A stretch of 64,000 bases of DNA, from assembly GCA_029641185.1 (NCBI GenBank), contig JAPWGK010000009.1, positions 446,501 through 510,500 on the forward strand. The letters are read 5' to 3'. The notes under the pieces are model-generated. The model was given only the letters and a program-made list of their open reading frames with translations. It made no database searches and was not told the origin of the DNA. The translations under genes and the position numbers were made by a program. Positions 17,077 through 47,962 of the stretch are shown in pieces; the first letter of the stretch is position 1, and each line of letters begins with the position of its first letter. Origin of the DNA: Pseudofabraea citricarpa. Lineage: Eukaryota > Ascomycota > Leotiomycetes > Helotiales > Dermateaceae.

Positions 17077-19318
17077 ATGTTATCGTTTAATTTGCTCGCC
17101 AAGGTGGTGAGTTTCCTGACGGTTGTACCGACTATACAAGCAGGTTTCAACCCTTCTGCAACAAATAATGTAGCAGTATACTATGGTATTTACTTCCAGC
17201 CAAATTCTACTGCAAATTTCTAACCATAACACAGGTCAAAATTCATATGGGCGAGGTTCTAGCGACCCGCTTTCTCAAAAACGCCTATCGGCGTATTGTG
17301 CAAGTCAGTTTAACTTTCCCGTTACAATTGAGACTATGCTAATGTTTTTATACCAGATACCGATTTCAACGTATGTAGATCTTTTTCTGATTATTGGGCG
17401 GGTTTCTAAATTATTATCAGATCATTCCACTTGCATTTTTACTTTCGCTTTCAAGCCCGGCAGTCAACTTCGCCAACGCTGGTGACAATTGTACAGCAGT
17501 CGTCGGCTCAACGCTTGTCAGCTGTCCACAGCTTGAGTGAGTATACCATAACTTCTACATATCGGGGAATTGTTGCTGAATATCAATAGAGCCGATATCC
17601 AAGAATGTCAAAGCGTTTATGGAAAGACTATTCTTCTCTCGATAGGAGGTGCCACATATACAGAAGGTGGCTTTACCAGTTCTGACAAAGCCGTCGCAGC
17701 TGCCAACAATATCTGGGCTATATTTGGTCCTCGCCAGTCCAGTTCCACGGTTGTCAGGCCTTTTGGAGCGTCAGTTATTGACGGCTTTGATTTTGATTTT
17801 GAAAGCACGGTATCTAATGTCGTGCCATTCGCCAATCGACTACGTTCGCTCATGACTGCCAGTTCCGCTGTCACTGGGAAGAATTACTATTTCACCGCAG
17901 CTCCACAATGTCCCTATCCTGATCAAGCAGGCAAAGATCTATTGCAAGGTGGAGTGTTCTTCGACGCAGTCTTCGTTCAGTTTTACAACAATTACTGTGG
18001 CCTGCAATCTTATGTCGCTGGAGCCACAATACAGAACAACTTCAACTTTGAGACTTGGGATACTTGGGCTAAGACAGTCTCATTAAATCCCAACGTCAAA
18101 GTATTTCTCGGCGTACCAGCTTACACTACCGCTGCGGGAAGTGGCTACACGCCTACTGATAGATTGGCAACCATCATCGCTTACTGCAAGACATTCTCAA
18201 GTTTTGGTGGTGTGATGATGTGGGATATGAGCCAGGCATATGCAAACGCTGGATTTCTGGATTCTGTCAGAATGGCTTTGGGGAGTAGTAGTACACCTAC
18301 AACCTCAAAGGTTGCTACAACTAAGGGTGTTACCACTAAAGCTGGTAGCAGTACTAAAGCTGGCACGACTAATGCTGGTACCAGTAAGGCGGCTACGACC
18401 AAAAGACCCGGTTGCTCTTCTGTTCGTGCCACAACTGCGACTACAACTCGACGAACCTCTGTCACACCTTCAAGTACACCACGACCCAGCTCACCCGTTG
18501 GATCCAGCGTATCTACTTCATCACGACGTCCAGCATCTACCTCGGCCCCATCAACACCAAACAACAACTATGTTACGCAGTGGAACCAATGCGGAGGAAG
18601 TGGCTATACGGGACCCACAGTCTGTGAACCACCTCTAGTATGTAAAGTCGTCAGCGAATGGTGGTCACAATGTGATACCGCGCCAAACAATCCCAATCCT
18701 TCATCAGCAGCGGTAACAACAAGACGACAATCTCAAACTAATGCTGGAACAACCTCCGCTCGAAACCCTACTGCTACCACTGCGCGTACGAGCTTCTTGA
18801 CGTCGATTCGTGCCAGTAGTAGCAGCAGTAGTAAGAAAACAACCTCCACCACTCGTTCTTCCTCAACCACCCGCGCCGCTACTACTGCTCGTACTTCTTC
18901 AACACCAGCAACCACCCGCCCACAATCACAATCACCAACCCGAGTACAGACATCTCAGACTCCAGTCCCAACATCCACCTTGCCGGCATCCAGCGATTTC
19001 GTGAACGAGTGGGGCCAATGCGGCGGGACAGGCTATACGGGGACAACCATCTGCCGGGCGCCTTTTACATGCCGCATCCTCAGTCCATGGTGGTCGCAGT
19101 GCGAATTACCTGCCAACGCTCCCGTGTCGACTCTTGCTCCTACCCCAACGCCCACACGGGCTCCGGCTGCGACTCCAACTCCCACGAAGCCTGTAGCGGG
19201 CACCGGCACCGTGGAGAGGTGGAGTCAGTGTGGAGGGGAGGGCTGGACTGGGGGCACGGTATGCATCGCGCCTTACACTTGTCAGTATTTCGGCGTGTGG
19301 TACAGCCAGTGTGGGTGA
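17077..19318 (+). CDS. secreted GH18 chitinase with three C-terminal CBM1 modules
   Basis: Five exons: 17077-17185, 17235-17303, 17357-17370 (a 14-nt micro-exon), 17421-17536 and 17590-19318; 678 residues. Signal peptide at about 1-22. The GH18 catalytic domain spans about 25-330, with VAVYYGQNS near the start, SIGG near residue 120 and the catalytic DGFDFDFE at 167-174 (acid E174), as in plant-type class III chitinases; it hydrolyses chitin beta-1,4 bonds with substrate assistance. Ser/Thr-rich linkers, probably O-glycosylated, join three CBM1 modules starting near residues 430, 573 and 643. Each has QCGG, four cysteines and aromatic W/Y residues for flat polysaccharide binding. The multiplicity is unusual. 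It probably acts outside the cell on fungal or arthropod walls. Confidence 0.93.
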
Positions 19319-20340: not shown

Positions 20341-20500
20341 CCGGTGAGAGACACAATCAAAGACCCGAAATATCTGTCTAGAATACAGAGTAGCTAATTA
20401 TCAGCTTAAAGCCTAACCCTGAACCGCCGGTGAGAGACACGATCAAAGATCCGAAATATCTGTCTAGAATGCAGAGTAACTAATTCTCAGCTAGAGGCGT
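20341..20500. repeat. two-copy 86-bp tandem repeat
   Basis: Copies begin at 20341 and 20427 (both CCGGTGAGAGACAC). Four of the five differences in the first 60 bases are C/T or G/A transitions, which is compatible with repeat-induced point mutation. The base before each copy also matches in part (GCCTAA..CC). Confidence 0.85.
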
Positions 20501-21111: not shown

Positions 21112-22998
21112 TCAAGCAGACGACCTCGGCTTGCCAGCTGTGCGGCTTTTATATCGGACCGGTGTCCTGGTATTTTGGGTCCAAGACTGCGCCTTGCTGA
21201 CGGTATACTTGGCTGATAACCTAGGAGTATAGTGAATATTCATCATGGGTAGTGATTTATACTCGCTCCTGGAAGGCTGTAAATACGACGCAGTCCGAAT
21301 CGGGCCTGTGCTGCTTGGTGCACTGGGAAAGAAAGCTGTTTTCCCCGCTTGAATCCCCTCAAAATCAGCCAGTCGACAGCTTTCAGAGCAGTACAATCCA
21401 TTGGTTATTTGTTTCTCACAACTGAGACAGAATCTGACTTCCCAATCGGACTCGATATCCAAAGTGCTGGGTATGTTTTTGTGGCGTGCAGGAGTTGGAT
21501 CATGGATCTGGGGTTGAAGGGAAACATGTTTTTGCTGGAACAGGCGTACCCTCTTGAAGAAGCTGATGCGCTCATCATTTCTGGAGTGACCAGGCCCGTA
21601 GTGTCTCGATGCAGGCTCATCTCCCTGTGGAATCGGTGCTAATAGAGAGTCTTCGATGATTTCTTCGACTCGCTGAAACCACATACCACAACTCTGACTA
21701 TTTGATCTGAGCAAGCATCTTAAAACAAGGGCCGAGAATTTAGAAAATCACGAGATAATACTCACCAGCTGACTGTCTTTGAATGGTCTTTTTCTTCAAC
21801 TTCGCGTCGGCACCCTGGACATGTCATCCCTTCTTGATGATCTTGCTTGAAGATCACACACATGTCAATGTAGCGACCGGGCAAGAAAGCCGCGTGAAAT
21901 GGAAGGCTTCTTTCAATATCGCGTTGCAGGCTTTGATCTCTGATAGCGTACTCCTTGTTCCTGATCTTTCCCTCACCAGGGATATCGATAAACCGCGCTG
22001 TGAGCACAGCTTCGAAGACTTCCCACGTGTTCACCAGCTCTAGATGGATCGGGGTAACGCGTCCTAACGCATCTGTGAACATCAGAGGCTCCTGGATCCA
22101 GCACGGCCCAAACTCCCGTGGCACTCGAGTCTGGAGTTCCAGTAGTATGTTATAGCTTCTGATGCCATTCATCAAGATCCGAGCCATGAAATCTCGGAGC
22201 TCACTGCCTAGAGTGATAAAGTATTGCCTAAAAATCAAATCAGCATGCCATCATGTATCTGTACATGCTTTTCATACATCCCATCTGCGAGTCTACTGGC
22301 CATGCTGCTTTGCGCCTCCAAATATCCTGTGTTTTTATCAACGCTGGTTTTCAACAACTCCAATAATATATCCTGCTGTTGGACCGACGACTCGATGGCT
22401 AGTTGCATGTCATTAACTCGCTCGTGTAATCGAGTGTCGTGAAACTTCGAGAGAGACCTTGTATGAGACAAAAGTCAACGTCGATACGAGTACCACATAA
22501 CAGAGAGGGAGAAAGAGAGGGAGAAACAACATACACGCCAGCCGTGATCAACAGCATATTTATAGTAGAACTAAGCCCATTAACCTGCGTTCTAAATCTA
22601 GCGAGGTCGTTTTTCCTCGCGAGGGCCCAAGTGATTTTAGCCTTCGCCTTCGCAGCAGACCATCTAGAGGCCGACGACGCAGCAGCAGGTTGGTCGCCGA
22701 GCAAGGCGTCATAATGCTTGATCCGAGCCAGGAATCCCTCGAGACATGCGCGGCACTGCTCGGTCGTCCTGCGAGCCGTTTCACCAAGCGCCTTCATCTC
22801 GACCGTCGCCTGCAGCTCGTGGCTTCTCGAGCACAGCTCTGCTTCCAGCAGCGCCGCGTCTAATGCCCAGAGCTCGCGCTTCACTTCTTGGTACTCGCTC
22901 GATGCCCCGGAAACTTCGTCTAGCGCTTTGATGGCGTCTTTGATTAATATACATACCGCGAGGCAGTCGCCCGCCGAGAAGCCAAATGGAACGGCCAT
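21112..22998 (-). CDS. fungal ubiquitin-like-domain protein with Ecl1-like zinc motif
   Basis: Four exons: 22998-22535, 22457-22278, 22227-21766 and 21691-21112; 561 residues. Residues 1-155 match the fungal N-terminal region seen on STAND/NLR-like proteins (PFGFSAGDC start, helical). About 155-215 is coiled. Residues of about 250-345 match the fungal ubiquitin-like domain (FTDALGRVTPIHLE...). A zinc ribbon follows: C351/C354 and C369/C370, then GMWFQR; the last intron falls inside it. In the same frame downstream, C457-x2-C460-x9-C470-x3-C474 followed by RLAD resembles the Ecl1 life-span/stress-response family. Acceptors that keep upstream AG choices create a stop, so the AG at 21693-21692 is needed. 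It could instead be two genes, with the Ecl1-like one starting at an internal ATG (Met372). Role unknown. Confidence 0.7.
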
Positions 22999-23124: not shown

Positions 23125-23171
<47 letters not shown>

Positions 23172-44908: not shown

Positions 44909-47625
44909 TTAAACCATGATCCATTCACCATCGATCCCGCTCATATGTTTGGTCCATCGGAAGGCGCCACTGGTACTATTACTAGCAGCAGCAGGAGCAG
45001 CGCTGCGATCCGAGTTGGAGTCTTCCTTCTCGGCCCAGAGCTTCTCGAGAACCTCGAGGCCTGCAAGGTTATTGAGATAGCCACTGCGGCCCATTATCTC
45101 TCTGCATTTCGTGCGGACGATGGATTGCTGCAGCTCGTTGACGCACTCGCTACCGCTGATGAAGAGCGGCCACAGGAGGAACTTCTCAGCACCGCTACCC
45201 TGTTCCAGACTCGTCACGTAGTAGAGAACCTGCGAGACGAGGTTCTGGAAGTTGAGGTGCGAGGAGGGAAGGTTAGGACAAGCGAGGCGCTCTGTGTATA
45301 GGAGAGCCGAGTAGCGGAATGCTTCACTGATGTAGCCGAAGTCTCGCAGCTGGGTAGGAGATGGAGTGGGTTGCAGCTGAGACACTAATCGGCTCGGGTC
45401 GAACTCCCACGATTGCAGAGCAGATCGGCAGGCTTTCCATTCCGACCAGAAGGACGTGTTGAGATCTTCCGATGAGGGAGAGTTGGGCCGTCCTGTGGAT
45501 CCGAGCGGGAAGGCGTCATCGTCAAGAGTGGAGGCGAAGCCATTCCCGTCGAAGTTATGGGCGTGCAGGTTGTAGAAATCCACTAATGCTTGACCAGCGA
45601 GCTTGGGCCTTGGCATAGGGGGCGTTGGCCGGAGGAGGAGCGTTGTGGTGGGATAGTCAGGCATGATGGGACGGTGCTGAGCGAGGAGGTTCAGGCGTCC
45701 AAGTCTAGCGATGGTCTTGAAAAGAACACTGTCGCAGCCCGCGAGGTTCTCAAGGGCATGATTTGGATTTGCTGGATTCGCAACCATTTCTAAGAAGCCC
45801 CCTCGTAGTTGGGATTCTCGGTCGTTGATGCTGGCTGCGATGCCATCGAAGTATGTGAAGAGTGATTCCATCCAGCCCCAGTTCCCAGTCTCGAGACCAG
45901 ATTCTCGCATTCCCAGGATCTTCTTAACGCCTGCGAATTGTGTTCTAAACTGAGCTATGCCAGATTCACACATGCGGTAATGGCATAGAATAAATAATGT
46001 CGCGAGGACACAATCGTGTCTTGCTTTTGACGGGTCGCCAAGTTGCTCGTTGAGTAACTGCACAGCGAGGCTTCGATGCCGACATTCTTCCTGCATGGAT
46101 GAATCTTGAGCTTGGCTGTCAGATGATGATGCTTGTGGGGTGGTTCGTTGTGATGGGTTATATGATGATGTGTTGTTGATTTGATCGAGCTGTTCAAGCT
46201 CTGAAGGACGACGCCAGTTCTCTTGTCCCAGAGACTGCTTGCGCTTCATTCGTAGATTGCAAGCCGACAGTGCACAGATAGCATGCTGAAGACTGCGACT
46301 CGATGTGGCGAGACTCAGAATGTGTTCTCGATACGGATTGCTCGGACTGTCAATGACAACCACAGATGGGCAGATGACTTTATCATAGAAGTCCATGAAG
46401 AAAGAGATCCGTGGCGAAACGTCGGACGTATATGAAGATGAAAGTGATTCGTTATTTATTTGATAAGCTGCCTCGGCATCCGATGCAGCTTGGGAGGCTA
46501 CATCGTCGTCTCTCATGCTCGCCCAGCTGCGACCAAAGTGACTTGATCGGGCGCTGGTGCTGTAGACGTCCATTTCTTGCCTCCCTGCTTGGCCTTCACA
46601 GCGTCAGTAAAGGAACTTCAACCCGAGACGCACGACTAACCAAAGATGTCATCGCCGATGAAGATGTCAGCTTGACTGTGATGGCCCGCCGGAGAATGCT
46701 GGTGCTGTCGGCTCTCTTCGACCTCGTAGATGGTCTGGTGCGAGCTCAGGCTTGAACTCATCTCGGACTGCGCATAATACGGCTCTGGACACGACGTTGG
46801 ACCACGTGAATCCACCATCATGCCAATGTTTCCCACAACTGGGCTCTGGCCGGCATTCGAACTGGGCGTGGTATAATTGTACATGGGAACGGGGCTGTTG
46901 AGATAGGGGATGTCGTCGTGGGGGAACGACTGGCTGATGGGAGAATGCGCATATTCACTCTCGGCATAGGCACTCATAGCATCATGAACGGGCGAATTGG
47001 GCCCCAATCCCAGGGACATGTTCTCGCGAGCGAGGCTGAGGGTATGCAATCGTTGGAGCTGGGGCAGCTGCCTCTGATGGCTCATGGAATCATGGTGATA
47101 GTCGGGCACAGAGAACTCATTCGAAATGGCCATGTTCCAGTCGGGGATGGGCATTGGCGGGGCAGTGCCGTGGGGAGCCATGTTGACAAAGTCATAGTTG
47201 GTATACGCACTGACGGGCGTGTTTGCGCTGGACGACTCCATCTTGATCTTGACCTCGTCGCCATCCTGAAGCTGCGACTTTGTGAGGATGGAATTTGCTC
47301 GAGCTCGGCTGGTTGACGGAGGGGGACTTCGTTGCGCGGGGGCTGATCTCGCGACGGGTAGGGAAAGTCCTCGTAGCTTTCCTCGACTGGCCACGCCCAC
47401 GCCCCATGTTAATTGAGTTTTATAACCCGAACACTCTTTTCCAATCTCCAAGCACTGCGAACAATATGGTCGTCTGCGATCGCACTTCACACTTCTCTTG
47501 GTGCAAGTAAAACAGTCGTCACTGGCACCACTCGCAGGCGCTCTTCTACGCCTCTTCCGCTGTGGTTGCACTGTCGGCAGTTCCGAGGACTTGCTGGACG
47601 GCGGACACGAGACGGGTAAAGTCAT
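44909..47625 (-). CDS. Zn2Cys6 transcription factor
   Basis: Two exons, 47625-46641 and 46584-44909, with a 56-bp intron; 886 residues. The binuclear zinc cluster is C38-x2-C41-x6-C48-x6-C55-x2-C58-x6-C65, preceded by a basic stretch (RKRRRR) and followed by the conserved GYKTQLTWGVGVASRGKLRG segment. Residues of about 110-330 are Ser/Pro/Gln-rich. The second exon (about 330-886) resembles the fungal-specific regulatory domain of the Fungal_trans_2 kind, with FMDFYDKVICPSVVV and CALSACNLRMKRK segments. It is a nuclear DNA-binding regulator; targets are unknown. The acceptor is a tandem AAGCAG, allowing 886- or 887-residue forms. Very long repeat-rich flanks suggest long untranslated regions and complex control. 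Confidence 0.9.
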
Positions 47626-47962
47626 GATGATGGTGAGGATGGCGAGGCGGCAAAACAGGGAGAAGAGGAGGAGGCGGAGGAGTAAGTCGAGTTGGTGATG
47701 AGTGAGTTGGTTGTTGTCGTTGTTGTTGTTATGACGATGATGGGATGTAAGTGGCAGCTGTTGGGCACATTGAAATCGACGGGAGCATCAATGACGATAT
47801 GTGAAGGAGAATGAGGGAATCATTGAGGGACGTCAGAAAACGGTTTGGGGAGGTGGTGGTGGTAGTAGTGCTTGGGGACGAGGTCGTTGGTGGAGTCGCA
47901 GACGGGGGAAAGAGTACTGGGCCTACCAGGTCGACCTAGTTGGTGCAGGGCAGAGCAGGGCA

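Follow-up and report, generated by a model that had tools for sequence, protein, structure and literature searches.

Plant NLR receptors are known to contain integrated baits. In fungi, candidates for integrated baits in NLRs were proposed in 2025, and a CHK-2-like kinase that is C-terminal in some NLRs of Sordariales was put forward as an integrated decoy (PMC12258605). Fungal NLRs that guard cellular proteins are discussed in PMC10197012, and PMC9815663 describes fungal NLRs whose N-termini carry ubiquitin-clan (Crinkler) domains and terms the PF17111 domain HeLo-like. Another line of work concerns the Ecl1 protein of fission yeast, which binds the TORC1 subunit Mip1 and whose function requires four cysteines, C6, C9, C20 and C24 in S. 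pombe (PMC11984688).

The gene analysed here has features in common with each of these systems and departs from each of them. As in NLRs with integrated domains (plant NLR-IDs and the CHK-2-like kinase NLRs of Sordariales, PMC12258605), a conserved receptor-like half is combined with a diverged relative of a cellular protein, and the cellular protein is also present as a separate gene, which is the case for four of the tails described below. Unlike those receptors, the gene has no NACHT or NB-ARC match, and a whole tail is exchanged rather than an extra domain added. With the HeLo and HeLo-like cell-death proteins (HET-S, HELLP) it shares a helical N-terminus of related type, detected by profile in some of its relatives; however, its own N-terminus does not reach the profile and is followed by a ubiquitin-like domain and a ribbon. 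Fungal ULD_2 proteins (PF22893) with a PF17111-type N-terminus have the same order of head domains, the ribbon and the FKRVRL motif, but the Ecl1 tail is absent from all 16 relatives scanned. Finally, the tail matches the Ecl1 family (PF12855; S. pombe Ecl1-3) above the profile cut-off, has its four putative zinc-type cysteines and resembles the first residues of a stand-alone Ecl1. It differs in lying C-terminal to a stretch of 448 residues, whereas known members are small free proteins, in the spacing of its cysteines (x2-x9-x3, compared to x2-x10-x3 in S. pombe Ecl1) and in its divergence beyond the zinc motif. No description of the family or of the fusion was found in the titles and abstract openings of the open-licence literature, in keeping with the suggestion of a preliminary description of this DNA that the architecture is undescribed.

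Gene model and conserved head

The window is the whole 64,000-nucleotide stretch analysed (C43:446501-510500); the assembly searched comprises 43,985,132 bases in 43 contigs. On the minus strand, at 22998-21112, four exons (22998-22535, 22457-22278, 22227-21766 and 21697-21112) were assembled into a gene with a predicted product of 563 residues. Its domain order is a helical N-terminus, ULD_2, a four-cysteine ribbon, the FKRVRL motif and an Ecl1-family tail. All the parts that the preliminary description had assigned to one gene are thus present on this strand, the last two in one open exon.

Exon 1 (22535..22998, minus strand) encodes the helical N-terminal domain, residues 1-155, as judged by its open frame and by homology to the relative P0001. 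Removal of intron 1 (22458..22534, 77 bases, GTATGT...CAAG) yields ITAGVSLSKF, similar to ITASVSLTKL of P0001. Exon 2 (22278..22457) encodes a linker, residues ~155-215, placed by the alignment of relatives and helical in the predicted model of P0003; it is followed by intron 2 (22228..22277, 50 bases, GTATGA...TTTAG), whose removal gives RLADGMQYFITLGSEL, compared to SLAERMKYLLTLGTEL in P0001. Exon 3 (21766..22227) contains the ULD_2 domain (residues 260-342), matched by PF22893, and the first half of the ribbon (C351, C354). Intron 3 (21698..21765, 68 bases, GTGAGT...AAATAG) then leads to CQSCGMWFQR, which corresponds to CSGCGMWFQR of P0001. All three splice junctions, ITAG/VSLSKF, LADG/MQYFITLG and TVS/CQSCGMWFQR, align to homologues. 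The third intron had been expected at 21692-21765; an intron is indeed predicted there, but a length of 68 bases (21765-21698, acceptor AAATAG) fits better than 74, since the 74-base version gives CCGMWFQR and breaks the conserved second C-x2-C, which the shorter intron restores as CQSCGMWFQR. Exon 4 opens with the second half of the ribbon (21649..21697; C369, C372, GMWFQRVEEIIED), which is kept in relatives, and continues with ERISFFKRVRL (21541..21573, residues 411-421), a pattern found in relatives that marks the end of the head.

A Pfam search with the whole protein matched PF22893 to residues 260-342 with an E-value of 5.3e-13 and 49.4 bits, compared to a curated cut-off of 24.5, and the ubiquitin-like domain suspected earlier is thereby supported by its profile. 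In a fold search the predicted model of this domain from a relative matched ubiquitin folds.

The N-terminus, previously described as STAND-type, gave no match of its own to PF17111 in Pfam at E ≤ 1, and a genome search with that family, which listed 11 rows, did not include it; the one weak Pfam row on it was AbpA-like (E 0.08, under the cut-off). Of the 16 relatives, 4 match PF17111 at E ≤ 0.01. The cut-off of 27.2 bits is reached by P0001 (27.8 bits) and also by P0003, with P0002 just below. The window protein is 46% identical to P0001 over the match, and about 50% identical to it in the head; because of this homology to a protein that reaches the cut-off, we count the helical N-terminus as a PF17111 relative. 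In the predicted model of P0003 the N-terminal part is all-helical, and the fold-search rows in this part were long-helix folds of many kinds, with no HeLo, HET-S or MLKL chain among the 50 rows listed. Neither NACHT nor NB-ARC was detected in the 563-residue protein (Pfam, E ≤ 1) or in the 16 relatives (E ≤ 0.01), and the earlier view of an NLR-like signalling protein holds only in part.

With the 68-base intron 3, the ribbon cysteines read C351-x2-C354-x14-C369-x2-C372. The two C-x2-C pairs are present in 11 of the 14 rows of the family alignment, window included, two other rows being truncated and one having an insertion. Zinc-ribbon profiles stayed below their cut-offs in the window protein (best, zf-HYPF, 13.3 bits compared to 23), and the assignment as a likely zinc ribbon, made already in the preliminary description, therefore rests on the conserved cysteines rather than on a profile. 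Of the 16 relatives, 12 showed an FKRVRL-type motif. The P0003 model has a predicted strand at residues 429-433 and a mean pLDDT of 85 in the block 421-430. When the family alignment was used as a profile against the PDB, it returned DnaJ chains, which correspond to the P0007 tail, together with a few rows at E ≥ 0.2.

Several other elements were observed in the window. A GA-dinucleotide run lies at 23128-23167, some 130-170 bases upstream of the start codon of the gene, and 54-base direct repeats (20346-20399 and 20432-20485, four mismatches, 86 bases apart) lie past its 3′ end. An open frame at 17552-19318 on the plus strand encodes a glycosyl hydrolase of family 18 with three matched stretches of fungal cellulose-binding domain. 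On the minus strand, a SET domain with a MYND finger within its matched range is found at 80-1372, and a Zn2Cys6 finger and Fungal_trans_2, in two adjoining open frames that perhaps form one transcription factor gene, at 44909-47787.

The Ecl1-family tail

The tail (21112..21459, minus strand; residues 449-563 and the stop codon) contains C459, C462, C472 and C476, which form the C-x2-C-x9-C-x3-C motif noticed earlier as Ecl1-like. PF12855 (TORC1 inhibitor Ecl) matched residues 454-550 with an E-value of 8.8e-13 and 50.1 bits, compared to a cut-off of 28.3, when the whole protein was searched, and with 51.9 bits when exon 4 was searched alone; the Ecl1 likeness was thus borne out by the profile.

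Three other Ecl1 loci were found in the genome, of which at least two stand alone as judged by their frames, and the four cysteines of the tail align with two other Ecl1 proteins of this genome. The tail is 51.5% identical over 33 residues to the stand-alone Ecl1 at C1:1206089. The likeness starts at residue 1 of the C1 protein (DIESDWEVRFCLSCEKQ compared to MDMDWSLPFCLACDRQ); the fusion therefore appears to have taken in the Ecl1 frame from its beginning.

A single open exon carries the second ribbon half, the FKRVRL motif and the Ecl1 motif, with no stop between them. From the ribbon to the Ecl1 motif there is only one in-frame methionine, residue 374 (in GMWF); the next follows at residue 520. 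A separate Ecl1 transcript beginning at Met374 was considered and is unlikely, since this residue lies inside the conserved ribbon; for the same reason a separate Ecl1 gene is unlikely. As predicted from these frames, one intact gene joins the head and an Ecl1-family frame within one exon.

A constant head with exchanged tails

A homologue search in which the best 7997 candidates were scored yielded at least 13 proteins, and a core-directed search from P0006 added three, which gave 16 relatives; these searches reach relatives of similar length that share exact five-residue words, the 7997 scored first being those sharing most words. The named relatives are fungi of the Helotiales and Pleosporales, the order having been checked for Venustampulla. 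ULD_2 was matched by Pfam in 16/16. Six of them have other Pfam tails (DUF3425, chromo, RRM, DnaJ, MIT, ankyrin), and Ecl1 was matched in none of the 16 at E ≤ 0.01. A search with the Ecl1 region itself gave no hit at E ≤ 0.001 among 49 candidates. To the question raised earlier, whether orthologues keep ULD_2 and Ecl1 together, neither search gave a positive case. No conserved group of Ecl1-fused orthologues was found, which weighs little given the limits set by five-residue words and length; since no such orthologue was found, the Ecl1 fusion may be young or lineage-limited.

Heads and tails were then compared separately in 13 of the 17 proteins, window included, P0004, P0013, P0014 and P0016 being left out for having no FKRVRL-type motif. 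The tail was cut 12 residues past the motif, and tails of database proteins were taken from the gene models of others. At E ≤ 1e-3 the heads matched in 78 of 78 pairs and the tails in only 3 of 78, all three among P0008, P0009 (both from Alternaria) and P0012. An example is P0002 and P0003, with 82.6% identity between their heads over 437 residues and no match between their tails at E ≤ 1e-3; some linker letters that the two share beyond the cut fall below the E threshold. Across this fungal family, as judged by sequence comparison, a constant head is combined with exchanged tails, and the tail swapping is a stronger finding than the Ecl1 fusion itself. Because the relatives do not have Ecl1 and their tails vary, we regard the Ecl1 gene as one instance of a tail-swapping family and not as a conserved sensor-output pair. 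The dedicated coupling of an immune-like input to starvation envisaged in the preliminary description is accordingly not supported, as none of 16 relatives has Ecl1 and the same head bears many unrelated tails; coupling to starvation is possible as one case of a wider pattern.

The same pattern is seen within the genome, where at least seven ULD_2 genes were found, two single-protein searches adding none. Besides the window gene these are L013 (C23:1585500-1592500, minus strand) with a kinase tail; L015 (C41:386500-393500, minus strand) with TPR-like sequence, the best TPR row being below the cut-off, and a PKA-type kinase; L016 (C6) with a TPR tail; L017 (C1:2939000-2946500) with a long ankyrin array, whose open frame of 880 codons also takes in the last part of the ribbon; L018 (C12:832500-838500, minus strand); and L014 (C26), whose tail has a 112-residue frame judged by eye to be coiled-coil-like. 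The tails of L014 and L018 had no Pfam match at E ≤ 0.01, the L014 scan covering an 88-residue piece ending after the motif and an N-terminal piece. At the L018 locus, a 523-codon open frame with ankyrin-like repeats, as seen by eye, lies on the same strand beyond the 243-codon frame of the paralogue.

With the tail of each own-genome member taken as the part within one open frame, not the full spliced tail, 1 of 21 tail pairs matched at E ≤ 1e-3, namely the two kinases (27% identity over 93 residues). In five of the seven genes (window, L013, L015, L017 and L018) a single open frame holds both the head end and the tail, the head end of L017 being taken as the second half of the ribbon for want of a clear FKRVRL motif; in L014 and L016 the two lie in different frames. 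These five joins are therefore not artefacts of gene prediction.

Four tails, the PKA-type kinase, the second kinase, the TPR part and Ecl1, have a separate relative in the genome. The L015 kinase had 1fot, a cAMP-dependent protein kinase type 1, as its top solved structure, and over 102 residues it shares 76% identity with the separate kinase L035 (C34:1797457), the next best being at 43%. Intron-like interruptions occur in the L015 tail and in L035 at the same two places, after LLRKSQ (65 and 51 bases, respectively) and after SVDW (70 and 53 bases), which suggests that the tail was copied as DNA with its introns. The kinase retains the lysine, YRD and DFG motifs, with one glycine of the Gly loop changed to alanine. 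Over 180 residues the L013 kinase shares 66% identity with the separate L040 (C16:133228; next best 31%); since its Gly loop and DFG motif are changed (TTDNFA in place of GTGAYG of L040, and NFD in place of DFG), this tail is probably not an active kinase. The L016 TPR part is 54% identical over 85 residues to a protein encoded at C1:906224, which retrieved a range of TPR proteins from the PDB and which we take to be Ssn6/Cyc8. By these identities both kinase tails are clearly copies of separate genes; for the TPR and Ecl1 tails, with 50-54% identity over short stretches, direct copying is less clear.

A putative bait or tether for cellular regulators

We lean towards the view that the family has an NLR-like head without a nucleotide-binding domain, to which the tail adds a bait or tether for one cellular regulator. 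The architecture and the tail swapping are read from the sequences, and from them we infer the bait role. The head would be the signalling half, self-associating through its helical domain and making contacts through the ubiquitin-like domain and the ribbon; the tail would be the addressing half, tying the head to one regulator, which for the window gene would be the Ecl1/TORC1 starvation axis. A disturbance of the regulator would then trigger the head. Such an arrangement would be analogous to the integrated domains of NLR immune receptors, minus the nucleotide-binding domain. Because fission yeast Ecl1 binds Mip1, the Ecl1 tail could hold the head at TORC1, whether as bait or as output. The degenerate L013 kinase supports a non-catalytic role of the tail, while the catalytic motifs of L015 would fit both a bait and an active output.

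That ambiguity leaves some room for the opposite direction of signalling, which we hold to be rather unlikely: the tail would be an active effector and the head a sensor that delivers active Ecl1 to TORC1. The paralogues would likewise deliver an active PKA-type kinase, a TPR part and so on, and the family would rewire nutrient signalling instead of detecting attack. Several of the copied tails do belong to nutrient or stress signalling, in which PKA and Ssn6 have roles, and the PKA-type tail retains its lysine, YRD and DFG motifs. The Ecl1 tail, too, keeps all four zinc-type cysteines, reported as needed for function in fission yeast (PMC11984688). However, the Gly loop and DFG motif kept in the separate L040 are gone from the L013 tail, and the great diversity of tails fits addressing better than one output.

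Still less probable is that the fusions have no selected role, head genes duplicating, landing beside or inside other genes, and giving rise to fusions that arise and decay. The differences between tails even of close heads would be expected on such a history, as would the failure to find an Ecl1-fused orthologue. Against it, one open frame covers both head end and tail in 5/7 own-genome members, one such frame being of 880 codons; the degenerate kinase tail retains kinase-like frames that stay open over most of the domain; and conservation of the head extends to distantly related fungi. Finally, it is very improbable that a ULD_2 gene ending after the ribbon and a downstream Ecl1 gene were joined only on paper: other Ecl1 loci exist in the genome, at least two stand-alone by their frames, and the likeness begins at residue 1 of the C1 protein, but the conserved ribbon and FKRVRL motif share the exon of Ecl1, the stretch from ribbon to Ecl1 has neither a stop nor an in-frame methionine, Met374 being within the ribbon, and the other-frame ATGs and one donor-like site present there would require an unseen intron.

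The bait or tether reading can be carried further, tentatively, to a class of intracellular receptors in fungi that would lack a nucleotide-binding domain and in which a HeLo-like/ubiquitin-like/zinc-ribbon head would repeatedly capture copies of the cell's own regulators as baits. On this more doubtful proposal the baits in the present genome might be the PKA-type kinase, the second kinase (probably inactive), the Ssn6-like TPR part and the TORC1 inhibitor Ecl1; in other species, they might be the RRM, DnaJ, chromo, MIT and ankyrin parts. If such a class exists, the window gene would guard the Ecl1/TORC1 axis, and the captured tails would be a readout of the fungal proteins attacked by unknown enemies. 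A conserved head that has no nucleotide-binding domain and exchanges whole regulator tails would widen the idea of an NLR, and the family would give concrete candidates for the targets of fungal enemies. A tail copy and its free original in one genome form ready pairs for telling bait from output.
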